Of a DNA stretch of 64,000 bases, positions 1,436-63,831 are shown piece after piece; the stretch's first letter is position 1; every line of letters begins with the position of its first letter. This DNA comes from Pseudomonas sp. (GTDB lineage: Bacteria; Pseudomonadota; Gammaproteobacteria; Pseudomonadales; Pseudomonadaceae), in the NCBI RefSeq assembly GCF_030698175.1, contig NZ_JAUYNT010000039.1:29647-93646 (forward strand), read 5' to 3'. A program made the position numbers and the translations under genes. Under the pieces are notes generated by a model. The model was not told the origin of the DNA, ran no database searches, and saw only the letters and a list, made by a program, of their open reading frames with translations.

Positions 1436-1825
1436 TCAGGCTTCGGTGTTGCAGGCTGCGGTGTAAGCAGCAGCGTCGAGCAGCTTGTTCAGCTCGGCGG
1501 CGTTGCTTGGTTGCAGCTTGAAGAACCAGCTGGCGTAAGGGTCGCTATTCACTTGCTCAGGGCTGTCGGTCAGCACTTGGTTGACGGCGAGCACTTCACC
1601 TGAAATCGGCGCGTAGATGTCCGAGGCGGCTTTTACCGACTCCACCACCCCGGCTTCCTGGCCCGCGTTCAAGCTGGCGCCGACTTCTGGCAGCTCAACG
1701 TAGACCACGTCGCCCAAGGCTTCTTGCGCGTGATCGGAGATGCCCACGGTCACAGTGCCGTCGGCTTCCAGGCGAACCCATTCGTGGCTGGCGGCGTAAC
1801 GCAGATCGGCGGGGATATTGCTCAT
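1436..1825 (-). CDS. gcvH: Glycine cleavage system H protein (lipoyl carrier)
   Basis: GcvH carries the aminomethyl intermediate between P- and T-proteins on a lipoyl arm. The 129-residue length is normal. The lipoylation motif ESVKAASD places the modified lysine at residue 65, and the N-terminal SHEWV and GDVVYVELP segments are family hallmarks. The start is supported by GAGGA eight bases upstream. It lies between gcvT and gcvP in a three-gene minus-strand cluster, which matches its role as the shuttle between the other two enzymes. Confidence 0.97.
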
Positions 1826-1892
1826 TTCAGAGTCCTCAAAGTTTGACTGGGCAGCTGAGTGCCCGCATAAAGTTAGCAGCTAGCCGCCATCG

Positions 1893-1906
1893 GTCGCGTT
1901 CGCGAC
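1893..1906. repeat. Small GC-rich palindrome between gcvT and gcvH
   Basis: Six-base arms GTCGCG and CGCGAC are separated by two bases, and flanking ATC/GAT bases extend the stem with a bulge. There is no T run on either side, so it does not look like an intrinsic terminator. It could be a processing or stabilising hairpin in the gcvT-gcvH transcript, or a degenerate repeat. Confidence 0.3.
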
Positions 1907-1922
1907 GATAGCCGGCAGTTTG

Positions 1923-3005: not shown

Positions 3006-3184
3006 GGGATTTCCTTATGAAGCTACTGTGGGCGGGCAGAGGTTCGTCGGGGCAAGCTGCCAATGAGCCTGATGTACTGTGGCGCGGCGGCTCACCGTCG
3101 GAAACCCTGCTGAATACTGTGGGCATCAATAAAACGCGCGCATTGTAGCCCCTCAGTCGGCGGCTGGACACCCGCACTGGCGAG

Positions 3185-4801: not shown

Positions 4802-4935
4802 GCAATGACCTCAAGACGGAAACAACCCACACCCGCAAGCCGGGCGGCGCAGTATAAGCGCCGCAAGGCAGACTCAGCAGCGTAACGCGCAGACCGCCAG
4901 CCAGCGCTGCAGGCAATTGCGACTAGAACACAACC

Positions 4936-6492
4936 TTACTTAAGCCCCAAGCGCACGGCCAGCCGATTAAGATTGGCGCGGTCCAGCCCCAGCTCGCGGG
5001 CGGCGGCCGCCCAGTTGCCCTGCTGGCGCTCAAGACAGGCACCGATGAACTGGCGCTGATACACATCCAGCGCGGCCCGCAGTTCGCCGCCGCCAAGCAT
5101 GGCCGCCGGCTCTGCATTAGTTTCGGCCACTGCATTGGGCGGCTGGCTGCCGGGCAAATCCAGATCGTGCGCCTGCAGAGTAAGAATTCGTGGCCGCTCA
5201 CGGCACGCGGCCAGCGCCTTGAGTGAGGCACGGCCGATCAAGTGCTCCAACTCACGGACATTGCCCGGCCAGTCGTAACCGAGCAGCGCGGCCTGGGCAT
5301 CGGCGCCCAAGCGCAGGCTACGCAACCCCAGGCGCGGGCGATTCTCTTCGAGAAAACAGCCGGTCAGTAAAATCACGTCGCGACCGCGTTCGCGCAGCGG
5401 CGGCACGCGCAACGGATACACGCTAAGACGGTGATAGAGGTCGGCACGCAAGCGCCCGGCGCGCACCTCCTCGGCCAGATCGCGGTTGCTGGCGGCCAAC
5501 ACCCGGACATTGACTCGATGCTCGCGGTCCGAGCCGACCCGTTGCAGCTGGCCGCTCTGCAACACTCGCAAGAGCTTGGCCTGCGCCGCCAAGGGCAACT
5601 CACCGACCTCATCGAGAAACAAGGTGCCGCCGTCGGCCAGCTCGAACTTGCCTTGGCGGTCAGCGTGGGCGCCGGAAAATGCACCGCGCACATGGCCAAA
5701 CAACTCGCTTTCGACCAGGGTTTCCGGCAGTGCGGCGCAATTCAGGCTAACCAACGCCGCCTGGGCCCGCGCCGACTGGGCGTGGATGGCGTGCGCGACC
5801 AGCTCCTTGCCGACACCGGTTTCACCACTGATCAACACGTTAAGTTCAGTGCCGGCGACCAATCCGATCTCGGCCAGCAGGGCTTTATGCGCCGGGCTCT
5901 GGCCAATCATCTCGCGGGGGCGCAACTGCGCGGCGGCCTGCTTGTAGAGCTGCGCCAACTCATGCTCGGTTTCGACCCGGCGGGCCAGGCTTTGCATCCG
6001 CTCGCCGGCTTTAACCGTGGCGGCGGCGAGGCTGGCAAAGGCCTCCAAGGTGCCCAGATCGGCGCCACTGAAGCGCTGTGGATTGAGTGCATCGAGGGTC
6101 AATACACCCCACGGCTGCTGATCCAGATACAGGCCGCAACCGAGACAATCATGTACCTCCAGCTGTCCCAGATGGCCCTCGACGAGGCCGTCGTAGGGGT
6201 CGGGCAACTCACAATCGGCGGCAAAATGGGTGGCCTGCGCACTGCCCAGCAACGTCTGCAAGCGCGGGTGTTCGACCACTTTAAAACGCCGTCCGAGGGT
6301 GTCGGCGCTCAAGCCATCGACCGCCACCGGCACCAATTGCTCGCCATCCAGGCGCAACAAGGCCGTGGCATCGCAGGGCAACAAGACGCGCAAGGCACCG
6401 AGCAAACGCCGATACCGCTCGGCCTCGGGCAACTCACAGGCCAGATCAGCCACCAGTGGCAGTAAGGTGGCGAGCAGGGGATTAGTAGTCAT
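4936..6492 (-). CDS. norR: NorR, nitric-oxide-sensing sigma-54 activator
   Basis: NorR senses NO through a non-haem iron in its GAF domain and activates sigma-54 promoters. Order: GAF (about 1-170), AAA+ (about 190-425), Fis-type helix-turn-helix (about 475-518). Walker A GETGVGKE is at 223-230. GAFSGA at 270-275 is the sigma-54 contact loop (GAFTGA with S for T). Iron ligands known in E. coli NorR (R75, D96, D99, C113, D131) align with R77, D98, D101, C116 and D134 at consistent offsets, supporting true NorR over a generic enhancer-binding protein. It is divergent from hmp, with two GT-N7-AC sites between them. Confidence 0.93.
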   Translation of the reverse strand: MTTNPLLATLLPLVADLACELPEAERYRRLLGALRVLLPCDATALLRLDGEQLVPVAVDGLSADTLGRRFKVVEHPRLQTLLGSAQATHFAADCELPDPYDGLVEGHLGQLEVHDCLGCGLYLDQQPWGVLTLDALNPQRFSGADLGTLEAFASLAAATVKAGERMQSLARRVETEHELAQLYKQAAAQLRPREMIGQSPAHKALLAEIGLVAGTELNVLISGETGVGKELVAHAIHAQSARAQAALVSLNCAALPETLVESELFGHVRGAFSGAHADRQGKFELADGGTLFLDEVGELPLAAQAKLLRVLQSGQLQRVGSDREHRVNVRVLAASNRDLAEEVRAGRLRADLYHRLSVYPLRVPPLRERGRDVILLTGCFLEENRPRLGLRSLRLGADAQAALLGYDWPGNVRELEHLIGRASLKALAACRERPRILTLQAHDLDLPGSQPPNAVAETNAEPAAMLGGGELRAALDVYQRQFIGACLERQQGNWAAAARELGLDRANLNRLAVRLGLK

Positions 6493-6507
6493 TTACACCC
6501 TTTAGCA

Positions 6508-6518
6508 GTCATATTGAC
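6508..6518. promoter_or_regulatory. NorR enhancer site 1 (GT-N7-AC)
   Basis: GTCATATTGAC is a perfect inverted repeat (GTCA / TGAC) and fits the GT-N7-AC NorR consensus. It lies in the norR-hmp intergenic region, about 70 bases upstream of the predicted sigma-54 promoter. This is the position expected for an enhancer. Confidence 0.75.
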
Positions 6519-6532
6519 TCGATTTAGCCATA

Positions 6533-6543
6533 GTCTTAATGAC
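6533..6543. promoter_or_regulatory. NorR enhancer site 2 (GT-N7-AC)
   Basis: GTCTTAATGAC fits GT-N7-AC and is spaced 25 bases from site 1. E. coli norVW has three such sites; I found only two clear ones here. A TTGAT half-site resembling an Anr/Dnr box follows at 6563-6567, but its partner half is poor. Confidence 0.7.
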
Positions 6544-6585
6544 TCATTAAAAAACTAACCAATTGATATTTAACGACTTATTTTA

Positions 6586-6602
6586 TGGCACGAATCCTGA
6601 TA
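6586..6602 (+). promoter_or_regulatory. Sigma-54 promoter of hmp
   Basis: TGGCACG matches the -24 element exactly. The -12 element at the correct spacing reads CTGAT instead of TTGCA, so the GC doublet is GA. A sigma-54 promoter is expected because NorR is a sigma-54 activator. Its position means transcription begins near 6612, which rules out the ORF-track start of hmp at 6585. Confidence 0.7.
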
Positions 6603-6644
6603 TGTCCCAGTGTAGATGCTCAATTACTCTTCAGGAAAACCGCC

Positions 6645-7826
6645 ATGCTCAGCCCCGCACAAACCGCCTTGATTAAAGCCACTGTCCCACTGCTGGAGTC
6701 GGGTGGTGAAACCCTTACCGCGCACTTCTACACCATCATGCTCAGCGAGTACCCCGAAGTCCGTCCGCTGTTTAACCAAGCGCACCAAGCCAGCGGCGCC
6801 CAATCGCGGGCCTTGGCCAATGCGGTGCTGATGTATGCCAAACACATTGATCGCCTGGAGGCGCTCGGCCCGCTGGTTGGGCAGATCGTCAGCAAGCATG
6901 TGTCGCTGCAAATCTTGCCCGAGCACTATCCGATTGTCGGCGCCTGCCTGTTGCGGGCGATTCGCGAGGTACTGGGCGCCGAGATTGCCACCGATTCGGT
7001 GATTGCCGCCTGGGCGGCGGCCTATCAGCAACTGGCCGAGATTCTTATCGGTGCCGAAGAACAGGTCTACGCCGAGAATGCCGCAGGCGCTGGCGGCTGG
7101 CGCGGCGCGCGAGCGTTTCGAGTGGCGCGCAAGCAGGTCGAAAGCGAAGAAATCACCTCCTTCTACCTGGTACCCGAAGACGGCGGCGCATTACTGAGTT
7201 TCAGCCCCGGCCAATACATTGGCTTAACCCTGCAACTGGACGGCGAAGAAGTGCGCCGCAACTACTCGCTGTCGGCCGCCGCCAACCAGCACGAGTACCG
7301 CATCAGCGTTAAGCGCGAAGCCGGCGGGCGAGTGTCGAACTACCTGCACGATCAGGTGGCCGTCGGCGCTACCCTGCAGCTGTTTCCGCCGGCCGGCGAT
7401 TTTGTCCTGCGCCCATCCAGTAAACCTTTGGCGCTAATTACCGCCGGGGTCGGCATCACCCCGGCGCTGGCAATGTTGGAGCAGGCGCTGAGCAGCGGCC
7501 GCGAGGTTCACTTTATCCACTGCGCGCGCCATGGCGGTGTGCATGCCTTTCGCGACTGGCTGGAGACTATGGTGGCCAAGCATCCGCAGTTGCAGCGTTT
7601 CTACTGCTACAGCGAGCCGCGCGCCCATGACGGCCACTGCGCCAGCGGTTTGCTGACCGAGCCATTGCTGGCGCAATGGTTGCCGGTGCAGCGGGATTTG
7701 GACGCCTACTACCTCGGCCCCAAGCCGTTTATGGCACAGATCAAGCGTCACCTGCAGCGCCTCGGTGTACCGGGCGACCAATGCCACCATGAGTTCTTTG
7801 GTCCGGCGACGGAACTTGAAGCGTAA
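6645..7826 (+). CDS. hmp: Flavohaemoprotein, nitric oxide dioxygenase
   Basis: Hmp oxidises NO to nitrate using O2 and NAD(P)H. The 393-residue protein has a globin domain (about 1-140) with Tyr29, Gln53 and proximal His85 at the positions known in E. coli Hmp. An FAD-binding domain (RNYSLS) and an NAD-binding domain (ITAGVGITPA) follow. The chosen ATG has AGGAAAA upstream. The longer ORF-track start overlaps the sigma-54 promoter and would be upstream of the transcript. Divergence from norR and the shared NorR sites indicate induction by NO. Confidence 0.95.
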   Translation: MLSPAQTALIKATVPLLESGGETLTAHFYTIMLSEYPEVRPLFNQAHQASGAQSRALANAVLMYAKHIDRLEALGPLVGQIVSKHVSLQILPEHYPIVGACLLRAIREVLGAEIATDSVIAAWAAAYQQLAEILIGAEEQVYAENAAGAGGWRGARAFRVARKQVESEEITSFYLVPEDGGALLSFSPGQYIGLTLQLDGEEVRRNYSLSAAANQHEYRISVKREAGGRVSNYLHDQVAVGATLQLFPPAGDFVLRPSSKPLALITAGVGITPALAMLEQALSSGREVHFIHCARHGGVHAFRDWLETMVAKHPQLQRFYCYSEPRAHDGHCASGLLTEPLLAQWLPVQRDLDAYYLGPKPFMAQIKRHLQRLGVPGDQCHHEFFGPATELEA

Positions 7827-7838
7827 ACCAACACCTCC

Positions 7839-7856
7839 GGCCGGCACTCGCCGGCC
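7839..7856 (+). terminator. GC-rich hairpin downstream of hmp
   Basis: A perfect 7 bp stem (GGCCGGC / GCCGGCC) with a 4-base loop begins 13 bases after the hmp stop. It has no following T run, so termination would be weak or Rho-assisted. Confidence 0.4.
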
Positions 7857-8017
7857 GCTCTACCTCAAGCCACATAGCCAAAGCCCGCAGCCTACCTGTG
7901 CGCCGACGTTGGCCGGGCGCATAAAGCCCTCCACCAGCTGCCGCAAACATGCGCTTTACGCTACCATCGGTCGCCGGCAGCCCCACCGCCGTGCCCACGA
8001 CCGCTAGGAGCGACCCC

Positions 8018-9121
8018 ATGCTACCCACCCAAATAACTGAGAAGGTGCTGTCGCGCGGCCTGCTTGATGTACTGATTCGGGCCGGCTTGATTGCCGCCCT
8101 GGTGATCTCCTGCTTCCAGATCTTCCGTCCCTTTCTCAATCTGATGCTGTGGTCGGTTATTTTGGCCATCACCCTCTATCCCTTGCACGGCATGCTTAAA
8201 CGCAAGCTGGGCAACAGTGACGCGCGGGCCGCGTCGCTGATTATATTTTTCACCGTGGGCATTCTGCTGGTGCCGGTGTACCTGCTTGGCAACTCAATGG
8301 CCGAATCGATCCAGCAAACTATTGCAGTGGTCAAAAGCGGTGGTTTGCATATCCCGGCGCCGGCTGATTCCGTGGCCAGTTGGCCGCTGGTGGGCAAAAG
8401 CCTGCATGGATTCTGGCTGCAAGCGTCGACCGACCTCACCGGTTTGCTGCAAACCGTGGCCCCGCATCTCAAGGGCCCGAGCCTGAGCCTGCTGGGCAAA
8501 CTGGCCGGGGCCAGCGTCGGCCTGCTGATGTTTATCTTCGCGCTGTTTATCGCCGGCATTGTCATGGCCTACGGCGACAAAGGTAGCCACAGCGCGCAGC
8601 TGATCGCGGCACGCATTTCCGGCCCGGAGAAAGGTCCGCAGATCGCCGAGCTGTGCACCGCCACCGTGCGCGCCGTCGCCCAGGGCGTGGTCGGTATCGC
8701 CTTTATCCAGATGTTGCTGGTGGGCGCCGGTTTTGTGGTGATGGGCATTCCCGGCGCCGGTTTGCTGGCCCTCGGCGTGTTGCTGCTGGGCATCATGCAG
8801 TTGCCGGCCAGCCTGATCATCATCCCGGTGCTTGGCTTCGTGTTCGCCACTGAAGGCGCCACTGCCGCGACCATTGGGTTTGCCATCTACAGCGTCCTCG
8901 CCGGCATGGTCGATAACGTGCTCAAGCCCTTGCTGCTGGGTCGTGGGGTGGCGGTGCCGATGCCGGTGATTCTGATCGGCGCCTTGGGCGGGATGATTGC
9001 CAGCGGCATCATCGGCCTGTTTATTGGCCCAGTGATGCTGGCGGTGGCTTATCAGTTGTTTTGGCAGTGGATCAACGACCAGCCCGCGCCCGACGCGACC
9101 AGCGACACCAGCCAAAGCTGA
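8018..9121 (+). CDS. AI-2E family (PerM/YdiK-like) inner-membrane protein
   Basis: The 367-residue protein has about eight hydrophobic segments in the pattern of the AI-2 exporter-like (PerM/TqsA/YdiK) superfamily: a paired N-terminal hairpin, a soluble loop near residues 90-160, then clustered C-terminal helices with LLLGRGVAVPMPVILIGALGG, typical of the family. The ATG at 8018 has AGGAG eight bases upstream; the ORF-track start adds 23 residues without a ribosome site. Members export AI-2, peptides or other solutes, and the substrate cannot be read from sequence. The gene follows hmp after 190 bases and may be transcribed separately. Confidence 0.82.
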   Translation: MLPTQITEKVLSRGLLDVLIRAGLIAALVISCFQIFRPFLNLMLWSVILAITLYPLHGMLKRKLGNSDARAASLIIFFTVGILLVPVYLLGNSMAESIQQTIAVVKSGGLHIPAPADSVASWPLVGKSLHGFWLQASTDLTGLLQTVAPHLKGPSLSLLGKLAGASVGLLMFIFALFIAGIVMAYGDKGSHSAQLIAARISGPEKGPQIAELCTATVRAVAQGVVGIAFIQMLLVGAGFVVMGIPGAGLLALGVLLLGIMQLPASLIIIPVLGFVFATEGATAATIGFAIYSVLAGMVDNVLKPLLLGRGVAVPMPVILIGALGGMIASGIIGLFIGPVMLAVAYQLFWQWINDQPAPDATSDTSQS

Positions 9122-9271
9122 TTGGCACTTGGCACACCGGCGGTAATCGGCCGCGGACGACCGTTATGCTGAGCGGCCTGACGATGATGCGCCAGTGCTG
9201 TTGGCCTCGTCCGGCTAGTCATCCGAAGGCCTGCTGCTGAGCGTGCCGGTGCTCAACCTCAGGCTATTTAA

Positions 9272-9661
9272 TTAAGCGCTGCGCCGCACGCCGATCAAGT
9301 AGCTGACAAACAGCGTAATCATCAGCGCATCCACCAAGATATCCAGCCCGGCTTGATGGCCAAGAAAGTCGCGGCCGTAGGTCAGGATCAGACCGATAAA
9401 GCTCAGCTTGCTAACGCAGGCCGCCACTAACACCAAAGATCGGGTCGGCGGATTGAAGGCGGCGTAAATCAACATGCCGCCCACCAGCGCAATCAGCACG
9501 CCCCAGCTGCGCACGATAATTTCTGCCAACGGACCTTCCAGGGTCACGCCAAAGGTGCTGAGCAACGCCGCCTGCGGGGCGATGGCGGCAAACAGCATGC
9601 TGCAAGTCAGCACCCCGGCGACCAGCATGATCCATTTGATGTTCGCAACAATCCAGCTCAT
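9272..9661 (-). CDS. Small four-helix membrane protein, function unknown
   Basis: The 129-residue protein has four predicted membrane helices (about 10-33, 47-69, 78-98 and 105-124) and ends in GVRRSA. The start is chosen at the ATG with AAAGGAG upstream; the ORF track adds nine residues. I do not recognise the family beyond a general resemblance to small DUF membrane proteins. It stands alone on the minus strand between an AI-2E gene and the terminator of fbpA. The 150 bases between it and the AI-2E gene hold nothing I can identify. Confidence 0.7.
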   Translation of the reverse strand: MSWIVANIKWIMLVAGVLTCSMLFAAIAPQAALLSTFGVTLEGPLAEIIVRSWGVLIALVGGMLIYAAFNPPTRSLVLVAACVSKLSFIGLILTYGRDFLGHQAGLDILVDALMITLFVSYLIGVRRSA

Positions 9662-9780
9662 GAAATGCTCCTTTTGGGGTTTATGCATGCTTGCAATAAG
9701 CGTCGTGACGCGGCGCGGCCTGAACCTATCGCCAGCCTCTGCGGATCAAAGGCCCCGCTGCTGGGCCTGGCGCTGAAACA

Positions 9781-9810
9781 ACAACGCCCCGCACTATGGC
9801 GGGGCGTTGT
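9781..9810 (-). terminator. Terminator downstream of fbpA
   Basis: A 12 bp perfect stem (ACAACGCCCCGC and its complement) with a 6-base loop lies 39 bases beyond the fbpA stop. On the minus strand it is followed by TGTTTC. The T run is modest but the stem is strong. Confidence 0.7.
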
Positions 9811-9848
9811 TGGCAACTCAAGGGCTCAGTCTTTTAACCGCGCCAGGC

Positions 9849-10859
9849 TCAATTCCAGCCGGCGCGATCCATCAACTTCAAGGCTTCGACCTGGCGCTTG
9901 CCGGCCACTTCCAGCGGAATGCTGTCGGCTTTAAACGGCCCCCAAGCACTGACTTCCGCCGAAGGTTTAACCGCAGGGTTAGCCGGGAACTCCTGGTTGA
10001 TGTCGGCAAACAGGTTTTGCGCCTCGGCGGTGGTCATCCACTCCAGCAGTTTTTGCGCCTCAACCCCATGGGGTGCGTATTTGGTCACGCCGGCGCCCGA
10101 GAGGTTGACGTGCACACCACGATCGGCCTGATTGGGCCAGAACAGCTTAACCTTGAGGTCCGGGTCTTGCTTATGCAGGCGGGCAAAGTAGTAGGTATTG
10201 ACCAGGCCAACATCGCACTGGCCGGCATCGATGGCCTGCAGCAAGGCGGTGTCGTCGGCAAACACGTCGGTGGCCAGGTTATTGACCCAACCCTTGACGA
10301 TGGCTTCGGTCTTAGCCGCGCCGTGGGTTTCGATCAGGGTGGCGGTCAACGACTGGTTGTAGACCTTCTTGCTGGTGCGCAAGCACAGACGGCCAGCCCA
10401 GTCCTTGTCGGCCAAGGCTTCGTAGGTCGACAACTCAGAAGCTTTAACCCGCTCGGTGGAATAGACGATGGTCCGCGCCCGCAGCGACAGGCCAGTCCAA
10501 CTACCGGTGCTGGAGCGATATTGCGCGGGGATATTGGCGTCGATAACCGCCGATTTTAACGGTTTGAGCACGCCTTCCTGCTCGGCCTGCCAGAGGTTGC
10601 CGGCATCCACGGTAATCAGCAGGTCAGCCGGCGTATTGGCGCCCTCGGCCTTGAGACGCGCCATCAAGGGCGCCTCTTTGTCGGTGATGAATTTGACTTT
10701 GACCCCGGTTTTGGCGGTGTAGGCATCGAACACCGGCTTGATCAGCTCGTCGATGCGCGCGGTGTAAACCATCAATTCTTCGGCCGCCAGCAGCGGGGCA
10801 GACACCGTAGAGAGGGCAAGAACGGGAAGCGTGGCAAGCAACGTCTGGCGCAGGCGCAT
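9849..10859 (-). CDS. fbpA: Periplasmic iron(III)-binding protein (FbpA)
   Basis: FbpA captures ferric iron in the periplasm and hands it to the FbpB permease. The 336-residue protein starts with a signal peptide ending [25 protein letters not shown] opens the mature domain, and NTYYFAR supplies the adjacent tyrosines that coordinate iron in this class. Length is normal. A Fur-box-like site lies about 40 bases upstream of the start, and a strong hairpin follows the stop. In P. aeruginosa the equivalent gene is adjacent to fbpB; here about 5 kb separates them. Confidence 0.92.
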
Positions 10860-10896
10860 GGCGATAATCTCGGCAGAGTGATAATTCTAAACAAAT

Positions 10897-10915
10897 ACTA
10901 ATGAATAGCATTTAG
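10897..10915. promoter_or_regulatory. Fur-box-like site upstream of fbpA
   Basis: This 19-base stretch matches 11 positions of the GATAATGATAATCATTATC Fur consensus and contains the inverted core AATG / CATT. It lies 38 bases upstream of the fbpA ATG in an AT-rich segment, as expected for an iron-repressed gene. Assignment is by eye only. Confidence 0.5.
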
Positions 10916-11006
10916 GTTAGCAATTACTCTCACACAAACGCCACCGCCGGCACTTGTCGCCGATCAATTTATCTGGGCTTTAGCCCGCCAATACGCCGGC
11001 CTCTGG

Positions 11007-12239
11007 CTACGCCCGCGCCAGCTCCGGTAAATCACCGGACAAACCCAAGGCCTGACGCACCAGCAAGGCCTTGCCTTCATTCAGGCCATCAACCAGATTC
11101 AGCCCCGAATTACGCAACCAGCGCAGCGGCAGCGGATCGGCCTGGAACAACCGCTCGAAGCCCTCCATCGCCGCCATCATCGCCAGGTTATGCGGCATAC
11201 GGCGGCGCTCGTAACGGCTGAGCACGCGAATATCGGCAGGGTTTTCGCCGCGCTCCAGCGCATGCAGCAGCACTTCGGCGAGCACCGCAGCATCCAGAAA
11301 ACCCAGATTGACCCCCTGGCCGGCTAACGGGTGAATGGTGTGGGCGGCGTCGCCGATCAAGGCCAGGCCGGGCTCCACATAGCGCTTGGCATGCCGTTGG
11401 CGCAGCGGGATGCAATGCCGTGGGTCGGCCTCCAACACCTCACCCAGACGCCACTCGAAGGCCTTGCCGAGGGCGTAGCGAAACGCTGCGTCATCCAGTG
11501 CCATCAAGCGTTCGGCCTCGCTCGGCGTCACCGACCAGACAATCGAGCACCATTGCTCGGCATCCTCGCCCGTGCGCCCGGCCAAAGGCAAAAACGCCAG
11601 CGGGCCATCGTCGGTAAAGCGCTGCCAGGCGGTTTGTTGGTGTGGCTTGGCGCAGCGCACGCTGGTGACTAGGGCGTGGTGCAGGTAATCCCATTCGCGG
11701 GTGGCGCAGCCAGCCAGGCGCCGTACCGCCGAGTTGGCGCCATCGGCGGCGATCAGCAGCGGCGCGCGTAACTCGCGGCCATCGCTGAGGGTCAGCAACC
11801 AGTCGTCGCCGGAGCGGCGCAGTTGCTCCAGGCGCGCGCTGGGCAAAATACCCAGGTCGGCGTCATACAGGGCATCCAGCAGCGCATCCTGAACCACGCG
11901 GTTTTCGACTATATGGCCGAGCACCTCGGCATGCACGCTGGCAGCGGAAAAATGCACCTGGCCGGTGCCGGAGCCGTCCCACACCTGCATCTCGCCGTAG
12001 GGGCTGGCGCGCCGGGCGACGATCCCCGGCCAGACCTGCAGGCGCTCAAGGATGCGCTGGCTGGCGGCCGACAGGGCGCTGACCCGTGGCTCAAAGGCCG
12101 CAGCCTGATCGAACGGCTTAACGCTCAGCGGGCCGCCATCCAGCAACATGATTTGCAGACCACTGTTTTGCAGCGCCAAGGCCAAGGCACTACCAACCAT
12201 ACCGGCGCCAACAATGATCACATCCGCTTGTAGTTGCAT
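11007..12239 (-). CDS. ubiI: 2-octaprenylphenol hydroxylase-type FAD monooxygenase (UbiI/VisC)
   Basis: UbiI-type enzymes hydroxylate the aromatic ring during ubiquinone synthesis, bound to the inner-membrane Ubi complex. The 410-residue protein has the Rossmann FAD motif VGAGMVGSALA near residue 11, the GD motif GDAAHTIHPLAGQGVN and the Ubi-family stretch ENRVVQDAL. It begins two bases after the DUF4442 stop, in the order pepP-ubiH-DUF4442-ubiI. Assignment as UbiI rather than UbiF rests on this conserved gene order. Confidence 0.9.
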   Translation of the reverse strand: MQLQADVIIVGAGMVGSALALALQNSGLQIMLLDGGPLSVKPFDQAAAFEPRVSALSAASQRILERLQVWPGIVARRASPYGEMQVWDGSGTGQVHFSAASVHAEVLGHIVENRVVQDALLDALYDADLGILPSARLEQLRRSGDDWLLTLSDGRELRAPLLIAADGANSAVRRLAGCATREWDYLHHALVTSVRCAKPHQQTAWQRFTDDGPLAFLPLAGRTGEDAEQWCSIVWSVTPSEAERLMALDDAAFRYALGKAFEWRLGEVLEADPRHCIPLRQRHAKRYVEPGLALIGDAAHTIHPLAGQGVNLGFLDAAVLAEVLLHALERGENPADIRVLSRYERRRMPHNLAMMAAMEGFERLFQADPLPLRWLRNSGLNLVDGLNEGKALLVRQALGLSGDLPELARA

Positions 12240-12241
12240 GC

Positions 12242-12724
12242 TTAGGCTGCCTGCCGCGCGCGCGGCTTGAGTCGTACATAAAGGGTTTTGTGCACCCGCG
12301 CCACCAGGGTGCCTTCGCCGTCGCGCACGTCAACGTGCAACTGCGGCAGGTATTTTTCGCCGGCGGCGGTGTGCGCGCGAATGTCCGCCAGCAGCTTATC
12401 GTCGATGACAAAGTCGGCGTACACCGGGCCTTTGCCGGGGGCGATAAAATCGATGCTGGCGGCCTTGTCCCAGACCAGATAATCGTCGCCCAACAAGGGC
12501 ATCAACAACAGCATGTAGAAGGGATCGACCATGCTGTACAGCGAGCCGCCGAACTGGGTGCCAACCGCATTGCGGTTGTACCAGCGCAACGCCATCTTCA
12601 CCCGCGCCTGCCGGCAATCCGGACTGATCTGCTGCACCGAGATGCCGGCACCGAGGTAAGGCGGATAGAGGTTCAGGCCAATGCGCAACAAACGCGCGCG
12701 ACGGGCCAATTTGGCATCACTCAT
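12242..12724 (-). CDS. DUF4442 hotdog-fold protein (thioesterase-like)
   Basis: The 160-residue protein fits DUF4442: NLYPPYLGAGI, then NRNAVGTQFGGSLYSMVDPF, which resembles the hotdog-fold core of acyl-CoA thioesterases. No substrate is known. The start at 12724 has GAGAG upstream and lies 11 bases after the ubiH stop; the ORF-track start overlaps ubiH by 40 codons. Its placement between ubiH and ubiI is conserved in P. aeruginosa as far as I recall, suggesting a link to quinone or lipid metabolism, but that is inference. Confidence 0.82.
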   Translation of the reverse strand: MSDAKLARRARLLRIGLNLYPPYLGAGISVQQISPDCRQARVKMALRWYNRNAVGTQFGGSLYSMVDPFYMLLLMPLLGDDYLVWDKAASIDFIAPGKGPVYADFVIDDKLLADIRAHTAAGEKYLPQLHVDVRDGEGTLVARVHKTLYVRLKPRARQAA

Positions 12725-12734
12725 AACAGTTCTC

Positions 12735-13919
12735 TCACGACGGGCGCGGGCCCAGGCCCATGGCCTGGCGGGCAAACCAGCGCTTGGCCGGCGGTAATAA
12801 ATCCAGCCCCAGGAGGCCGAGATTGCGCCCGGCGGCCAGCAGCGGCTGGTCACTGGTAAAGAGTTTGGTGACCTGATCGGAAAAACCCACGGTCAGTTGC
12901 TGGTCGAGGCGCTGGCGCTCCAGATAACCCTGCAAGCAGGCCAGCTCGCCCAAGGGCGCAGTGCTGGCCAACAGGGTTTCAGCCAGCTCCAGAGTATCGC
13001 GCAGCGACAGATTGTAACCCTGGCCAGCAATCGGGTGCAGGCTGTGGGCGGCGTTGCCGAGCACCACCAGATGGGGCCGCACTTGCTCCTGGGCCTCGGT
13101 CAGCGCCAGCGGATACAGATGGCGAGCGCCAACCTTGTGCAAGGCGCCGAGACGATAACCAAAGGCCTCCTGCAGTTCGGCCAGAAAGTGCCGATCATCC
13201 AGTTGCAGCAAGCGTTCGGCATCCGCGCTCGGCCGGGTCCAAACCAACGCGCAGCGGTTATCCGCCAACGGCAGCATGGCCATCGGCCCGGCCTCGGTGA
13301 AGCGTTCGAAGGCCTGCCCCTGGTGCGCCTGACTGGCGCTGATATTGGCGATCAGCGCACTCTGCTGATAGGCCTGCTGGCTGACGGCGATGCCCAGTTG
13401 CTCGCGCAAGCCGGAGCGGCCGCCATCGGCCAGCACGGCCAGGTCGCACTCCAGGGTCGAGTCATCATTCAAAGTTAAGCGATAGCCATCACCGAGACTG
13501 TGCATGGCCAGCACTTCGGCCGGGCAGCGCCAACTGATCACATTCTTATCCAAGGCTTGCCACAGGCAATGGCCGAGCCAGGCGTTCTCGACTACATAAC
13601 CGAGCGCAGGCACCCCTTCATCGGCGGCACTTAGCCGTGCGGCGCCAAAGCGACCACGGTCGGAGACATGAATTTGCGCAATCGGTTCGGCCCGCTCGGC
13701 GATGCTCGGCCACAGGCCCAGGCGCTGGTAAATCTGCCGGGTGCCGAACGACAAGGCGGTGGAGCGCGCGTCGTAGCTGGGCTGGTAGCTGCTGCCGGGG
13801 GCAAATGGCTCGATCAGCACTATCTGCCAGCCGCGGGCTTTGGCACCGGTTTGCAACGCCAAGGCCAAGCTGGCGCCGACTAGGCCGCCGCCAATAATCG
13901 CCAGTTGCACCCGTGCCAT
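12735..13919 (-). CDS. ubiH: 2-octaprenyl-6-methoxyphenol hydroxylase
   Basis: UbiH hydroxylates a late ubiquinone precursor using FAD and O2. The protein from the ATG at 13919 is 394 residues, with IIGGGLVGASLALAL at the N-terminus, ARSTALS, and GNAAHSLHPIAGQGYNLSLRD near residue 300. That GNAAH/GQGYN form is characteristic of UbiH (UbiI has GDAAH/GQGVN). The start codon overlaps the pepP stop in a TAATG junction, so the two are translationally coupled. The 475-residue ORF-track version includes 81 non-homologous residues read out of frame with pepP. Confidence 0.94.
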   Translation of the reverse strand: MARVQLAIIGGGLVGASLALALQTGAKARGWQIVLIEPFAPGSSYQPSYDARSTALSFGTRQIYQRLGLWPSIAERAEPIAQIHVSDRGRFGAARLSAADEGVPALGYVVENAWLGHCLWQALDKNVISWRCPAEVLAMHSLGDGYRLTLNDDSTLECDLAVLADGGRSGLREQLGIAVSQQAYQQSALIANISASQAHQGQAFERFTEAGPMAMLPLADNRCALVWTRPSADAERLLQLDDRHFLAELQEAFGYRLGALHKVGARHLYPLALTEAQEQVRPHLVVLGNAAHSLHPIAGQGYNLSLRDTLELAETLLASTAPLGELACLQGYLERQRLDQQLTVGFSDQVTKLFTSDQPLLAAGRNLGLLGLDLLPPAKRWFARQAMGLGPRPS

Positions 13920-55656: not shown

Positions 55657-57762
55657 TTACCAATCCAGCGAATAACTGACCGCCAAGGTACGCCCCTCGG
55701 CATTCGGGAAAGGCTCGCGGGCATTGGCCTGGGTAAACAGATTCTCATAGGTCAGATTGCCCAGGTTGTAGATGCCGCCGTCCAGGCGACCGGTCGGTAA
55801 CTCCAGCGAGCCGAGCAGATCGACCAGGGTATAGCCGTCGATGTCGCGGCCCGTGCCGTCTTTGGCGGCGCCGCTGTAGTCGGCCAACTGCATGGCCTGC
55901 AGGCGCAGGTTGTAGCTGTCCTGGCTGTAACCGACGAAGGCCGTGGTTTTCACCGGCGACACCCGGGTCGCCGGCAGGTCCAGCCATTGGCCGTCTTGCT
56001 TGGTTTCGCCCTTGGTCCAGGCGTAGGTACCCCCCACCGACCAATGCTCGACCGGGTAGTAGGTCAGGCTGCTCTCCACCCCGCGCACCCGTTCTTGTTG
56101 ATTGACCAGGCGCAGCACCCGGTCGGTCGCATCGTAATACTGGGTCACATCCGAGGTGTTTTCGTAGACCGTCACCGCCGCCTGCCATTGTTGCCAGTCG
56201 CCACGCCAGCCGGCCTCATAGCTGTTCACCTTGATCGCCTGGGCATTCAGGGTCTGGATATCGAAGCGGCTGTCCACGTCGCGCAAGAAGCGCTGAATAT
56301 CCGGCAGCGAGAAGCCTTGGCTGAAGTTGACGAACAGATCCTGCTGCGTGCTCAGGTGATACACCGCGCCGAGGTTATACAGCGTGTCGTCATACTTGAG
56401 GCTGCCGCCCGGTAAGGTCGCCCGGTTACCGGTCTGCCAGATTTCACCGTAGGCGATGCTGTCCGCCACATCCGCCTCGATCCATTCACGCCGCACGCCG
56501 CCGCGCAGGGTCCAGTCGGCGATATCCCAGGACATTTGCCCGAACAGCGCCTTGGTGGCGGTCTCCACATCCGGGCCCAGCTCATAGGTGGTGCCGGTTT
56601 TGTGGTACTCCAGGCCATTGATTGCATAGCGGTCGCCGCGCTGGCGGCTGCGCTCGTTCTGATAATCCGCGCCCCACACCAGGTTGCCGCTGGCTGCGCC
56701 AATCGGCGGCAAAGGGCTGTCGACTGCGGCGCGCAAGCCAAAAATATCTTGCACGCTGTTGTTATCCGAAACCCCGGCCTTGCCACGCGGACGATCCGGG
56801 AAGAACAAGGCATCGGCGCGGCGCCAGTAGCTTTCCACCAGCAGGCTCTGGCCGTAGAGGTCCTGATCGCTGTAATTGAGGTTGATCGCCTGGTTATGGG
56901 TGTAGGGCTGATCCGCCAGTTTCAGGCCCTTGGCCGCCACCGCCTCGCCGTCGATTGAACGCTGGGTGTAGTCGCTGTCTTGCTGGTCCTTATAGTCCTG
57001 CAACGACAGGCTGAGCTTTTTATCCGGGTCGATGGCGTAACCGAAGCGTCCCTGCAGGTCATAGGTTTCGGTGTCCATGGCGCTGCCCTGGGAAGTGTCC
57101 TGGGGAATGCGCTGGCCATCGCCGTCGAACTGGTCGTTGCGCTGGGTGAGGTCGGCCGACAGGTACCAATCGAGGTCCTGATTGCGCCCCGTGGCGCTCT
57201 GAAACGCCTCATAGGCCAAGCCCTTGGCATTGAGGTTGTTGGCACTGGTCAAACCAAAGCGACTGCTGAGGGCCAGGTCCTGACCCTGATTGCGCTTGGT
57301 GATGATATTGATCACCCCGCCCGAGGCGCCGGCGCCATAAATACTGCTGGCCCCGGAGATCACCTCGATCCGCTCGATGCTGGCCGGGGCGATACTGTTG
57401 AGCTGGCGAAAGTTATCCCGACTGGCGTTTTGCGAGACACCATCGATCAACACCAGCATGTTGCGACCGCGCAGGGTTTGCCCGAAGTTGCTCATGCCGC
57501 CGCTGGAGGGGGCCAGGCCCGGCACCAGCTGCCCGAGAATGTCGGCGACCTTGCGCCCGGCGCCGCTTTGCTGGCGTAACTGCTGCTCGTCGATGACCTG
57601 CACCGAGCCTGGAATCGAGGCAATGCTGGTTTCGCTGCGGGTGGCCGAGACCACACTTTCCGACAGGCTCAAGGCCTCGGCTGGCGGCGGAGTTTCGGCC
57701 GCCAGCAAAGGACTCAGCGGGCTAAGCAGGGGCAGCAGAATGGCAAATTGAGTGGTTTTCAT
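55657..57762 (-). CDS. TonB-dependent outer-membrane siderophore receptor
   Basis: The 701-residue protein has a signal peptide ending LLAAE, a TonB-box-like ESVVSATR, a plug domain (IPGSVQVIDEQQL; GVSQNASRDNF; IEVISGASSIYGAGASGGVINIIT) and a 22-strand barrel ending YSLDW. It is the last gene of an operon with an NIS synthetase and an MFS exporter, overlapping the latter by four bases, so its ligand is probably the ferric form of the siderophore made by that synthetase. IutA-like features are present, but ligand identity is inference. Confidence 0.92.
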   Translation of the reverse strand: MKTTQFAILLPLLSPLSPLLAAETPPPAEALSLSESVVSATRSETSIASIPGSVQVIDEQQLRQQSGAGRKVADILGQLVPGLAPSSGGMSNFGQTLRGRNMLVLIDGVSQNASRDNFRQLNSIAPASIERIEVISGASSIYGAGASGGVINIITKRNQGQDLALSSRFGLTSANNLNAKGLAYEAFQSATGRNQDLDWYLSADLTQRNDQFDGDGQRIPQDTSQGSAMDTETYDLQGRFGYAIDPDKKLSLSLQDYKDQQDSDYTQRSIDGEAVAAKGLKLADQPYTHNQAINLNYSDQDLYGQSLLVESYWRRADALFFPDRPRGKAGVSDNNSVQDIFGLRAAVDSPLPPIGAASGNLVWGADYQNERSRQRGDRYAINGLEYHKTGTTYELGPDVETATKALFGQMSWDIADWTLRGGVRREWIEADVADSIAYGEIWQTGNRATLPGGSLKYDDTLYNLGAVYHLSTQQDLFVNFSQGFSLPDIQRFLRDVDSRFDIQTLNAQAIKVNSYEAGWRGDWQQWQAAVTVYENTSDVTQYYDATDRVLRLVNQQERVRGVESSLTYYPVEHWSVGGTYAWTKGETKQDGQWLDLPATRVSPVKTTAFVGYSQDSYNLRLQAMQLADYSGAAKDGTGRDIDGYTLVDLLGSLELPTGRLDGGIYNLGNLTYENLFTQANAREPFPNAEGRTLAVSYSLDW

Positions 57763-58976
57763 AATTCTTTCTGTTCAGGTGTTAAAGGGCAAACCAGAAC
57801 CTCTGGCGCCAAGGCACGCGAACGGATCAGGCGGATGCCCAGAGCCGCAAGCGCGTAAGTCAGAGCCACCAGCCAGAAGCTGTAAGCCAGCCCCGCCAGT
57901 TGCATGCCGAGGGCGCCCAGCAGGGTGCCGAGCAAGGCGCCGGCCTTGGCCGCGCTGTTGCCCAAGCCGAGGGCGAAACCTTGCTGATTGGTGGCCACCC
58001 GGTTGGCGATCAGCGCATAGGCGACCGGCAGTAACGCGCCCTGCCACAGCCCCCAGAGCAGGCGACTGGCAATAAAGCCGAGCCAGCCACTGGCCAGCGC
58101 GGTGAGTGCCAGGGTCAGGGCGCAGAGCCAGGCCACCCCTTCCACCACCCGCAGGGTTTGCGCCGGTTTCCAGCGATCAAACAAGCGCCCCCACAGCGGC
58201 GCCGACAGCGCCAGGGTGACGGCACTGGCGGCGTAGCTGGCGCCGATCAGCCAGCCTGGGGCGTGCAAAACCTCGGCGACATACAGGGCGTAGAACGACT
58301 GCGGCATCATCTTCGCCGCCTGCACCAGCACGATGATCGCCAAAATACCGGCCAGCCAACCGCTGGGCAGCTTGCTCGGCGTTTGCGGGCGGCTCGGTCG
58401 TGACTCTGGTCTGTCGGCCGGCAAGCCGAGGCTGAGCAGCCCACAGAGCAGGCAAATCAGTGCCGCGCCAACACAGAGAGCGGCAAAACCCGACACATCC
58501 ATCAGCCAGCCGCCCAACACCGGGCCGACCAGGGAACCGACGGCGGTGGCCGATTGCAGCCGGGCCAACACCAGACCACGACCGCCGCTGGCACAGCAAG
58601 CCAAGGCATAGGCCTGGGCGGCGGCAATAAAACCGGCCAGCGCGCCTTGCAGGGTACGAATGGCCACCAGCAACCAAGGGTCCAGCGTGATCGCCGCCAA
58701 GCCCTGACACAGCGCCAACGCCAGCAGTGCCCGCAGGATCATTGGCTTGTGTCCGGTACTGTCGCCCAAACGCCCCCACAGCGGGGTCAGCAACATCGCC
58801 GCGAGCATCGGCCCGGCATACACCAGCGCCGACAGCAGTGCGGTGTACTGGGCCTGCGCCGGCCCGAGCAACGCCTGGATCTGTAACGGCCAAAACGGTC
58901 CGCTCATCTCCATGGCCGCCATCGAAACCAGCTGGATCAGCACCAGCAGTCGCAATGACGAACCCCTAACCGCCAT
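57759..58976 (-). CDS. MFS transporter, probable siderophore exporter
   Basis: The 405-residue protein has 12 hydrophobic segments with the MFS loop-2 motif as GRLGDSTGHKP near residue 68 and its half-repeat GRLFDRWKPAQ near 270. Its start overlaps the NIS synthetase stop by 11 bases and its stop overlaps the receptor start by four, so it is translated with both. Similar MFS genes beside NIS synthetases (FslB, LbtB) export the product; the role here is inferred from that. Confidence 0.88.
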   Translation of the reverse strand: MAVRGSSLRLLVLIQLVSMAAMEMSGPFWPLQIQALLGPAQAQYTALLSALVYAGPMLAAMLLTPLWGRLGDSTGHKPMILRALLALALCQGLAAITLDPWLLVAIRTLQGALAGFIAAAQAYALACCASGGRGLVLARLQSATAVGSLVGPVLGGWLMDVSGFAALCVGAALICLLCGLLSLGLPADRPESRPSRPQTPSKLPSGWLAGILAIIVLVQAAKMMPQSFYALYVAEVLHAPGWLIGASYAASAVTLALSAPLWGRLFDRWKPAQTLRVVEGVAWLCALTLALTALASGWLGFIASRLLWGLWQGALLPVAYALIANRVATNQQGFALGLGNSAAKAGALLGTLLGALGMQLAGLAYSFWLVALTYALAALGIRLIRSRALAPEVLVCPLTPEQKEL

Positions 58977-60891
58977 GGGTGGCGTGGCGCAGCGGATTGC
59001 TCAGGCGGCCAACCATGTCGACCTGACTGTCGGCCAGGCGCATGCGGATAAAAGCCTTGGCCGGCCAGTCGTGTTCGAGCAAGGCTGCGCGCTCGGCCTG
59101 CCAGCGCTCAGCCTCCACCCGCCCGCGCAGCGCCTCGAAGCAGTCACCGACGTGACCGGCCAACAGCGCCCACAAAGGCTGTTCACTGACGCCCCAGTGC
59201 CGGGCGCAGAGCAACACCAACTCGCCCAGGTGGCACATAAAACTGGTGTGCAGCAGCTTGTCGCGCACCGCCTCGGCGTCGTCCAGCAGGGTCATGGCCG
59301 GGTCGTGCAGCTCAAGATCCAGGCCATGGGCCTGCAGGGTCGGGCGATGGATGCGGATGTCGCCAAAGTCGCGCAGCAACAGCCGGTTGGGCTGCCCCTG
59401 AGCGTCCATGACCATAAAACTGTTCTGCTGATGGGCTTCGAACGCCACGCCGTAGAGCAAATACATGCCCAGTAAACCGTGCACGGCGATTGCCGCGTAA
59501 GCGTCAAAAAAATCCAGCAATGCCTGAGCATCATCGCCGCCCCGGGCCAGCGTTACCCACTGGCGCAGCAGGGGTTGGCCCTGAGCATCATGGGCGAACA
59601 GGCTGCCGACCGGGACGGCCAGCTCACCGGGCTGCAACAGGCTCTGCGGATTGTCCCGATAGAGCACCGCCAAATGCCGGGAACGTTCGTCATCGGCAGG
59701 CTTGGGGCTGAAGTGCAGACCCAGCCGTTCGGGCAGCACGCAGAGCAGCCGCGCCAGCTCCGGCTCTTGCGCCAAGATGCCAAGCAACAGCCGACTGACC
59801 CGTGGCCCCATACGCGCCGAACGCGGCGAGACGGTGCGCTGGACACTGGTCAAGCGCAGCGCCACCGGCAGTTTGACCATCGGCGTGAGCAGGCTGCCCT
59901 CCGGCAGCACGGTACGAAAGGACATAGTCGGATGGCCCTGGAAGGCGACTATGTCGGTCAGCAGCAGGCGCTGCTCGGCGATTTCAGCGGCAAACAAGCG
60001 CGGCAGCGCCTCACTGACCTGCCAGGGATGTACCGGCAGCGGCAGATAGTCCTGCGCCGCCAAACCGCGACGCTGCAACTCGGCCCGCAGTTGCTCGGCG
60101 GCTTGGGGGAAATGCCCTTGCCACCACGACCAGTAATCCTCGCCCGCCAGCGCCTCGACATGCCCGCACAGCCGGTGCAGCGCACAGAGGCTGACCGGGA
60201 AACGCGCCTCGAATTCGGGCGACAAATCCACCACCTGTGCGGTGCTCAGGCCCAGCTTGGTCTTGTAACTCGGGTGCCAGGGGTGCCCCAACGTGCCCCA
60301 CTGCTCCAGCAACAAGCTCGGGTTGCTCTGGGCGAAACCGGCCTTTAGCCAGGCCAGCAGATTAGGCTCGGACTGCTTGGCAGTCTGCTGCTGCAACTGC
60401 TGGTTCCAGCAGTGGTGATAGGCCAGGCAGAGAGTGTCGTTGGCAAAACTGTCATTCAGTTCGGCGGCCAGTCGGGTAAAGGCGGCGGCCACTGGCGGCG
60501 GCGCAAGCTGATCGCGCAGCAATTGCAGCAATTCGGACGGGTATTGCAGCTCATAGGGCGCGCGCTGGGCGCGGTACAAGGTGACACTGCCGCGCAGCTG
60601 CCAACTGTTCATGCCGCCCGCCTGCAAGTGCTCGAAACGCAACAAGGCGCCGGCCTCACCCAGGCTCAACCAACAATGCTGCTGCTCATCGTAAGCACAA
60701 CTCTGGGCATCCAGCAGGCCCTCGCGAAACAACGCCTGCAGCAGCCGCTGAAAGCTGCGTTCACGGGCCGGTGCCAGTGCCTGAGCGAGATGATCGAGGG
60801 TGACTTGACGGACCTTGAAGCTCGGCGTGCCAAGCGCCTCGCCCCAGCGGGAAAGCAACTGTTGCAGTTGCGTCGGTACAGCGATAGTCAT
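58966..60891 (-). CDS. IucA/IucC-family NIS siderophore synthetase
   Basis: NIS synthetases join citrate or related acids to amines or alcohols via acyl-adenylates. The 641-residue protein is full length: LPLPVHPWQ near 290, HPTMSFRTVLPEGSLLTPMVKLPVALRLTSVQRTV around 320-350 (ATP/citrate region), GVAFEAHQQNSF and RDFGDIRIHR in the C-terminal ferritin-reductase-like half. AAGGAAATC precedes the ATG. It is the only synthetase in the operon, as in rhizoferrin systems (FslA, LbtA), so a symmetric citrate-diamine product is plausible but unproven. A Fur-like site lies upstream. Confidence 0.93.
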   Translation of the reverse strand: MTIAVPTQLQQLLSRWGEALGTPSFKVRQVTLDHLAQALAPARERSFQRLLQALFREGLLDAQSCAYDEQQHCWLSLGEAGALLRFEHLQAGGMNSWQLRGSVTLYRAQRAPYELQYPSELLQLLRDQLAPPPVAAAFTRLAAELNDSFANDTLCLAYHHCWNQQLQQQTAKQSEPNLLAWLKAGFAQSNPSLLLEQWGTLGHPWHPSYKTKLGLSTAQVVDLSPEFEARFPVSLCALHRLCGHVEALAGEDYWSWWQGHFPQAAEQLRAELQRRGLAAQDYLPLPVHPWQVSEALPRLFAAEIAEQRLLLTDIVAFQGHPTMSFRTVLPEGSLLTPMVKLPVALRLTSVQRTVSPRSARMGPRVSRLLLGILAQEPELARLLCVLPERLGLHFSPKPADDERSRHLAVLYRDNPQSLLQPGELAVPVGSLFAHDAQGQPLLRQWVTLARGGDDAQALLDFFDAYAAIAVHGLLGMYLLYGVAFEAHQQNSFMVMDAQGQPNRLLLRDFGDIRIHRPTLQAHGLDLELHDPAMTLLDDAEAVRDKLLHTSFMCHLGELVLLCARHWGVSEQPLWALLAGHVGDCFEALRGRVEAERWQAERAALLEHDWPAKAFIRMRLADSQVDMVGRLSNPLRHATHGG

Positions 60892-60955
60892 AGCGATTTC
60901 CTTGAGTAGCAGTAATCAAGGCCCCCCACGCTAACGTCAATAAGATTCAATTACA

Positions 60956-60974
60956 AATAAGAATTATTATTAAT
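60956..60974. promoter_or_regulatory. Fur-box-like site of the siderophore operon
   Basis: AATAAGAATTATTATTAAT matches 12 of 19 Fur-consensus positions, within an AT-rich tract 65 bases upstream of the NIS synthetase start. It lies also upstream of the divergent small gene at 61085. Iron repression is inferred. Confidence 0.58.
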
Positions 60975-61885: not shown

Positions 61886-62719
61886 TTATGGCCGCTCGCC
61901 GTTACTCAGGCGCAGCTCGATGGCGTCGAGCACCGCCGGTAATTCGGCAATGCTGGCGATCACATAATGGGCGCCGGCCTGATACAACTTGGCCGCCGCC
62001 GGGCGCGCGCACTCGGCTTGCTCAGCAGGCGCGAGGGCCGACCACTGGGCATGGCTCAAACCCACCTCGTTACCGGAGGCCGACAGCCCGACTGTCCACA
62101 TGCCCGCCGCCAGCCCCTCGTCGATGCCGGGCACGGTGTCGTCGACCTTGACGCAGGCGGCCACGTCGCTGGCGCCGAGGCGGATCAGGTTTTCCAACGC
62201 CATCCACGGCCCCGGTCGGCCACCCGCCGGCAAGTCATCGGTGGCCACCACCCAGTCCGGGGCGTAGCCGGCGGCGGCGGCAATCGGCAGCAGCGCATCC
62301 ATCACCACCCGTGGGTAGCCCGAGCAGGAACCGATTTTTAAGCCCCGCTGACGCAGCGTGGCGATGCACTGCAGCGCACCGGGAATCAGCGCCGAGTAAT
62401 CGCCCACCCGCTCGATTTGCAGCGGAATAAAGGCCGCGTACAACGCATCCACATCGGCATCCTGCATGGCCCGGCCAAAGCGTGCCCGCCAGCGTGCGGC
62501 CACGGATGGCAAACGCCCCAGCGCCTGGATGTGATCCCACTTGGCCAGGCCCATGGGGATGCGCGCCTCGGCCAAGCTGACCTCGATATCGAAGCCGGCG
62601 AACGCCTCGATCAGCACCTGAGTCGGGGCGAAGGAGCCGAAATCCACCACTGTGCCGGCCCAGTCAAAGATCACCGCCTGTAACTGGCCGGTGTAACGGC
62701 GTTGATAGCGGTAAGTCAT
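61886..62719 (-). CDS. phnX: Phosphonoacetaldehyde hydrolase
   Basis: PhnX cleaves the C-P bond of phosphonoacetaldehyde to acetaldehyde and phosphate. The 277-residue HAD enzyme has nucleophile Asp19 in [13 protein letters not shown] and the Schiff-base Lys60 in [11 protein letters not shown], the combination unique to PhnX. Later HAD motifs ([21 protein letters not shown]) are intact. Its start overlaps the phnW stop by four bases; the ORF track starts eight codons earlier. Confidence 0.96.
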
Positions 62720-63831
62720 GGTTTTACTCCTGTAGAACACCAACCGAGGTCGTCGAGGGCGGCGCCCAACGCGGCCAGCGCCTGATCGATTTCAGCGTGA
62801 TCGATAGCGCCGATACAGCCGACGCGGAAAGTCTCCAACTGGGTCAATTTGCCCGGATAGAGGATAAAACCGCGCGCCCGCACGGCCTGGTACAGGGCCA
62901 TAAACTGGTAGCTCGGATGCGTTGGCGCATGGGCGGTATAGATGATTGGCGCCTGCACAGCGGCCGGTAGATAAGGCTGCAAACCCAGCGCGGCGAGACC
63001 GGCGCGCAAACGCTCGGCATTCGCCTGATAGCGCGCCAGCCGCGCCGGCTGGCCACCTTCGGCGTGAAATTGATCGAGGGCAGAGCGCAGCGCCGCCAGC
63101 ACATGGGTCGGCGGCGTATAACGCCACTGGCCGGTGCGGGCCAAATAGGCGTGCTGGTCATACAGGTCCAGCGACAAGGAATGGCTGTTGCCCCGGCTGG
63201 CCGCCAGAGCCTGTTTCGCCACCAACACAAAGGCTATGCCCGGCACGCCTTCCAGGCACTTGTTGGCCGACGACACCAGCGCCGCAAACGGCAACTCATG
63301 GGCATCCACCGGCAAGGCGCCGAAGCCACTCATGCTGTCGATAATCAGCTGGCGACCGGCCGCCGCCACCACAGTGGCAATCGCGGCCAGCGGATTGAGC
63401 AGGCCGGTACTGGTTTCACAGTGAATGGCGCCGACATGGCTGATCTGCGGATGGGCGGCCAGATACTCGGCCAGTTGCTGCGGGCACACCGGCTGGTCAT
63501 CGGCAAAATTCAGGGTCGCCACTTGTCGGCCCATGACCTCGGCCAGTTGCGCCATGCGCAGCCCGTAAGCGCCATTGACCAGCACCAGCAAGGCGCCGTC
63601 GCGCGGCACCAGGGTGCCGATAGCCGCCTCCACGGCGAAGGTGCCGGAGCCCTGCAAGGGCACACAGACATGGCTGTCCTGGGCCTGGGCAATCGCCAGC
63701 AAATCGGCGCACACACCCGCCGTCAGGGCATTGAAACGGCTGTCCCAGGAGCCCCAATCATTCAGCATCGCGGTCTTGGTGGCCAGGCTGGTGGTCAGCG
63801 GGCCGGGGGTGAGGAGAATGGCGTCACGCAT
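62716..63831 (-). CDS. phnW: 2-aminoethylphosphonate-pyruvate transaminase
   Basis: PhnW transfers the amino group of 2-aminoethylphosphonate to pyruvate, giving phosphonoacetaldehyde for PhnX. The 371-residue protein opens [11 protein letters not shown] and has the PLP lysine 191 in [12 protein letters not shown] and [16 protein letters not shown] precedes the ATG. phnW-phnX is a complete two-step pathway. No regulator gene is visible before the window edge. Confidence 0.96.

Follow-up and report, generated by a model that had tools for sequence, protein, structure and literature searches.

The synthetase of a two-gene pair in Ralstonia pickettii (WP_012761004/WP_012761003) produced rhizoferrin on its own in vitro from citrate and putrescine, while the synthetase and its partner of the major facilitator superfamily (MFS) together yielded rhizoferrin in Escherichia coli (PMC7857480). 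In Francisella, where the fsl/fig operon encodes FslA/FigA, FslB/FigB and FslC/FigC, the route proceeds by way of ornithine and an N-citrylornithine decarboxylase (FigC) (PMC7857480). The lbtA/lbtB genes of Legionella (rhizoferrin/legiobactin) likewise combine a single non-ribosomal peptide synthetase-independent siderophore (NIS) enzyme with an MFS exporter. A locus comparable to these systems occurs in a 64,000-nucleotide stretch of Pseudomonas sp. DNA (contig NZ_JAUYNT010000039.1, positions 29,647 to 93,646), hereafter the window, in which three genes on the minus strand (window positions 55657-60891) form an operon for a synthetase of the IucA/IucC (NIS) type, an exporter of the MFS and a TonB-dependent outer-membrane receptor. 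Judged from its sequence, the operon is likely to represent a complete unit for making, exporting and importing a rhizoferrin-type dicitrate-diamine siderophore, probably rhizoferrin. The operon is real and intact, and what is new about it is its wide presence in Pseudomonas without an assigned product and the repeated loss of production with uptake retained, not uniqueness to this genome.

The synthetase gene, predicted to be of the rhizoferrin type, is the first of the operon (58966..60891, minus strand; 641 aa, ATG start), followed by the genes for the predicted siderophore exporter (57759..58976, minus strand; 405 aa) and the predicted ferric-siderophore receptor (55657..57762, minus strand; 701 aa). 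Synthetase and exporter genes overlap by 11 bases (58966-58976), and exporter and receptor genes by 4 bases (57759-57762). This arrangement, including the overlaps, had been proposed in a preliminary description of the stretch, and the coordinates and Pfam and NCBIfam matches agree with it; as also claimed there, no further biosynthetic gene adjoins the operon. The synthetase matches the IucA_IucC (4e-57) and FhuF (6e-29) domains, both well over the gathering cut-off, and retains the ATP/carboxylate motifs GHPWHP, SFRTV, HQQN and RDFGD, which are common to Francisella, Legionella and other homologs (GHPxHP, FRT, HQQN, RDFGD). It belongs to the NIS (IucA/IucC) family. The exporter matches MFS_1 (5e-42), and the receptor the TonB barrel (2e-30) and Plug (6e-21) domains. 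The top NCBIfam models are FslA (rhizoferrin synthetase, NF041038) for the synthetase, with 384 bits versus an 'exception' cut-off of 1000, FslB (rhizoferrin export MFS transporter) for the exporter, with 189 bits versus a cut-off of 600, and RhtA (siderophore receptor) for the receptor, with 330 bits versus a cut-off of 1100. A Francisella-type protein attains 1282 bits on NF041038, and by its score below the cut-off the window synthetase is a relative of FslA, not FslA itself. Among solved structures, only distant relatives were found for the synthetase and the receptor.

The synthetase was placed phylogenetically by means of a maximum-likelihood tree of 55 sequences. The Pseudomonas synthetases form one clade (100/100), which joins those of the Oxalobacteraceae (Duganella, Massilia/Telluria and Undibacterium) and Ralstonia at 97/95. 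Their sister group (100/99) is made up of clusters that combine one NIS enzyme with SbnA/SbnB/SbnH-like genes and come from rhizobia, Burkholderiales, Proteus and a further lineage within Pseudomonas. The Legionella, Francisella and other synthetases fall outside both of these groups, and the aerobactin-type (IucA/IucC) and other multi-NIS enzymes are placed outside all of the foregoing (99/94). The window synthetase is thus grouped with the Ralstonia/Oxalobacteraceae single-NIS systems and not with enzymes dependent on another NIS synthetase, and the Pseudomonas clade is bracketed by the rhizoferrin producers Ralstonia, Legionella and Francisella. Homologs of the FigC/SbnH-type decarboxylases are present in the sister clade, but none was found in the Pseudomonas (the window operon and the other three-gene loci), Oxalobacteraceae or Ralstonia loci.

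Like the Ralstonia system, the window operon has its MFS exporter gene immediately after that of its only NIS enzyme, lacks a decarboxylase gene and falls within the same tree clade. This comparison was made by way of Ralstonia sp. NFACC01 (L118), where the synthetase, if read from a GTG start, comprises 655 aa and adjoins a 414-aa MFS protein; as these lengths equal those given for the R. pickettii pair (PMC7857480), the locus serves as a stand-in for the R. pickettii enzyme by genus and gene length, not by the sequence of the R. pickettii accession. The window MFS protein shares 43% identity over 368 aa with that of NFACC01, while the Ralstonia locus yielded no homolog of the window receptor. 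The resemblance to Francisella lies in the top-scoring FslA and FslB models, but the window operon has no FigC-like gene and FslA falls outside the clade of the window synthetase. Similarly, the Legionella synthetases form a separate clade with ~30% identity to that of the window, and none of the Legionella loci showed a homolog of the window's TonB receptor. The closest synthetase and MFS pairs outside Pseudomonas are those of Duganella, Massilia/Telluria and Undibacterium (L112, L114-L119; 40-51%). In three of these loci (L114-L116) the receptor adjoining the pair is not a close homolog of that in the window, which suggests that receptors have been swapped.

One NIS enzyme and one MFS protein are also encoded in 'Putative siderophore 1' (PMC8719888), L051 and the rhizobial single-NIS clusters, whose synthetases belong to the sister clade. 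These clusters differ in having their own pyridoxal phosphate-dependent synthase, octopine-dehydrogenase-like and diaminopimelate-decarboxylase-like genes, and on this gene content probably make the amine within the cluster. L051 (genome G220, 183-13472), together with L122-L139 and L154, represents a second single-NIS cluster type, found in Pseudomonas, rhizobia and Burkholderiales; its content matches 'Putative siderophore 1' of PMC8719888, and its product is possibly rhizobactin-like. The iron-acquisition cluster of Pseudomonas mendocina ymp, considered as a possible match to the window operon, is of the NRPS (non-ribosomal peptide synthetase) type (PMC10165715) and was rejected on that ground.

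When 300 Pseudomonas genomes were searched with the synthetase and with the receptor, a synthetase match of 50-68% identity was found in 37 (about one in eight), although one of these (G226) carries a synthetase fragment only. No other IucA_IucC match was present in 33/37 carriers. The named carriers include P. aestuarii, P. baetica, P. gingeri, P. orientalis, P. palleroniana, P. lactis, P. paracarnis, P. brassicacearum, P. frederiksbergensis, P. kielensis and P. baltica. As most carriers repeat the three genes in the same order, the operon is not a chance arrangement. The genomic neighbourhoods are varied, with the operon adjoining an oligopeptidase B gene in L032 and a SbcC-like gene in L046 and L050. 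In the window, argH (TIGR00838, 638 bits) lies directly downstream of the operon, as the preliminary description had remarked in setting this position apart from the core gene order; outside the lineage of the window, however, only two near-identical lineages of metagenome-assembled genomes (MAGs) (L085 and L086) proved to share this context, and their copies have 94-97% identity with the window in all three proteins. The suggestion that the product may be new for the genus does not extend to the genes, given the 37 carriers and the lone IucA/IucC genes already seen in PMC8719888. A strong receptor match was found in 45/300 genomes, and the receptor is missing from one sampled synthetase genome; an intact synthetase without a detected receptor was encountered once among the genomes examined (G670, locus L102, a draft). 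Synthetase and receptor are also separated in P. brassicacearum 48H11, P. fluorescens FW300-N2E3 and G109 (loci L100, L110 and L047/L165), where an orphan synthetase gene is accompanied by a receptor gene (77-78% identity) at another site, paired in G109 with an MFS gene. The orphan synthetase of G109 adjoins the gene for a ToxA_N-domain protein of 1411 aa (dermonecrotic toxin N-terminal family; L047, 10261-14496). A recent foreign origin of the window operon is unsupported, with the GC content of its three genes, both overall and at third codon positions, matching argH and the window. There were no plasmid-borne relatives of >60% identity (the best was rhizobial, at ~35%), and no match was obtained when viral contigs were scanned with the receptor as query. 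On its other side the operon adjoins phnX (phosphonoacetaldehyde hydrolase) and phnW (2-aminoethylphosphonate transaminase), a 2-aminoethylphosphonate degradation pair (window 61886-63831, minus strand).

Production has been lost repeatedly while the receptor was kept. In four of the genomes that have a strong receptor match but no intact synthetase, G060, G238, G279 and G069 (L166, L167, L168 and L172, respectively), the promoter region is retained and an intact receptor gene directly follows a synthetase stub of roughly codons 1-73, 1-99, 1-52 and 1-122, respectively, with a different piece of the exporter gene also kept in two of the four. Both flanks run collinear with those of the closest relatives that have an intact operon (~84-96% nucleotide identity on either side), while 2.5-2.8 kb, corresponding to most of the synthetase and the exporter, has gone in place. 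In the receptor tree the four deletion loci occupy four different places, each next to intact operons, which requires four independent losses; the starred branches of the tree alone force four changes. Fur-like sites (12-15/19) remain upstream. In four further genomes the receptor alone is present and is diverged (67%); these receptors make up a single separate clade, and no remnant was found. Siderophore cheating has been described for pyoverdine (PMC5583256), and the stub and receptor genotype would fit such cheating, whereby the product of a neighbour may be used. No report of cheating at this locus was found in the literature searched.

A Fur-box-like site (ATTAATAATAATTCTTATT; 60956..60974, minus strand) is located 64 bases upstream of the synthetase start. 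It matches 13/19 positions of GATAATGATAATCATTATC, which 1.5% of shuffles do as well (P 0.015). A similar site occurs at a similar distance in most orthologs, with a best match of >=13/19 in 14/23 orthologous upstream regions (61%) versus 1.1% of AT-matched control windows. The upstream site claimed in the preliminary description is a candidate Fur site, moderate when taken alone and well supported by the orthologs. No Fur-like site was found for the orphan synthetase of FW300-N2E3. A Shine-Dalgarno-like AAGGA lies directly 5' of the synthetase ATG (60892..60904, minus strand; ...CAAGGAAATCGCT-ATG).

The genome from which the window derives (99.8% complete) contains one IucA_IucC gene. It also encodes an NRPS cluster (nine condensation domains), on whose flanks lie genes for a diaminobutyrate transaminase, an ABC transporter for cyclic-peptide export and a FhuE/FauA-type receptor; we take this cluster to be of the pyoverdine type. 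The NIS product would thus be a second siderophore. Putrescine may be supplied by the biosynthetic arginine decarboxylase SpeA (885 bits, above cut-off) and by a protein closest to the lysine/ornithine decarboxylases (ornithine-decarboxylase-like), both encoded in this genome.

The single NIS gene, the lack of a linked decarboxylase and the place between rhizoferrin-making lineages together point to iterative coupling of citrate to putrescine. The synthetase would adenylate one citrate and join it to one amine of putrescine; a second round at the remaining amine would then yield N1,N4-dicitrylputrescine (rhizoferrin) or a diamine analogue very similar to it. The diamine would be drawn from primary metabolism, so that neither a dedicated decarboxylase nor a second NIS enzyme would be needed. 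The MFS protein would export the siderophore and the TonB receptor return the ferric complex through the outer membrane, with Fur repressing the operon when iron is plentiful and the siderophore acting as an accessory to pyoverdine. The operon has no inner-membrane importer gene. The substrates and the product, the way in which each transporter works, the control of the operon and the entry of iron through the inner membrane are all predictions. The rhizoferrin-type reading of a single synthetase, already offered in the preliminary description, gains support from the 97/95 clade with Ralstonia/Oxalobacteraceae, the FslA and FslB models and the lack of a second NIS gene both in this genome and in 33/37 carriers.

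Several observations weigh against this reading. The FslA, FslB and RhtA scores are far under the curated cut-offs and represent family-level, not equivalog-level, matches, the Fur-like site of the window itself is only moderate, and the window synthetase is only 42% identical to the Ralstonia protein. Furthermore, the genome yielded no N-carbamoylputrescine amidase (AguB) scoring above cut-off, such that the route from agmatine to putrescine is only partly traced; an AguB-type supply was set aside in favour of SpeA and the ornithine-decarboxylase-like protein. Lastly, the sister clade with its SbnA/SbnB/SbnH-like genes probably uses another amine, so that specificity can shift at this depth. 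The low identity to the nearest proven type, the amine genes paired with the single NIS enzyme of the sister clade and the long Pseudomonas branch before the crown (0.49 changes per column) would be in keeping with a new dicitrate siderophore, the synthetase either using another free diamine (1,3-diaminopropane, cadaverine, spermidine or homospermidine) to build an analogue of rhizoferrin or forming a mono-amide. However, rhizoferrin is the product of the closest relative that has been characterised and of the lineages on both sides, and no amine-biosynthesis gene is linked to any Pseudomonas locus, and this alternative is considered rather unlikely. Unlikely, too, is the joint proposal that the operon makes a Pseudomonas-specific, undescribed dicitrate siderophore on a non-putrescine diamine with its own TonB receptor, and that the locus switches recurrently from producer to cheater by way of one deletion that brings the promoter region up to the receptor.

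The retention of the receptor alone in four relatives and the pyoverdine-type genes in this genome could also reflect a locus that is decayed or does not serve siderophore production, for example one used only for uptake of a foreign siderophore. With all three frames in the window intact, the catalytic motifs kept and 94-97% identity retained in the two close MAG lineages, such a role or state of the locus is very improbable. Most NIS pathways, such as those for aerobactin and achromobactin, are generally known to employ two or more synthetases, and the operon might accordingly form part of a scattered pathway with a second NIS enzyme encoded elsewhere. The position of the IucA/IucC and multi-NIS clusters outside the clade and the single IucA_IucC gene in a nearly complete genome, as in most carriers, bring an aerobactin- or achromobactin-like pathway close to refutation. 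A rhizoferrin-type product of a self-contained operon is thus preferred over these alternatives.

Two previous studies touch on such genes, their link to the window operon being the IucA/IucC family only. Lone IucA/IucC genes were seen in a 2021 Pseudomonas pan-genome study and not annotated as siderophore clusters, as no other biosynthetic genes lie beside them (PMC8719888), while IucA/IucC clusters without the expected partners in a mine-drainage Pseudomonas were proposed to make hydroxamates (PMC6906695). No paper on the product of this operon in Pseudomonas was found in a search that left out most subscription papers. If rhizoferrin is made, many pseudomonads would own a second, cheap, citrate-based siderophore that is uncounted in pyoverdine-based models of iron competition. 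The four independent receptor-only deletions, with near-identical producer relatives available for comparison, constitute a natural experiment on cheating outside pyoverdine.

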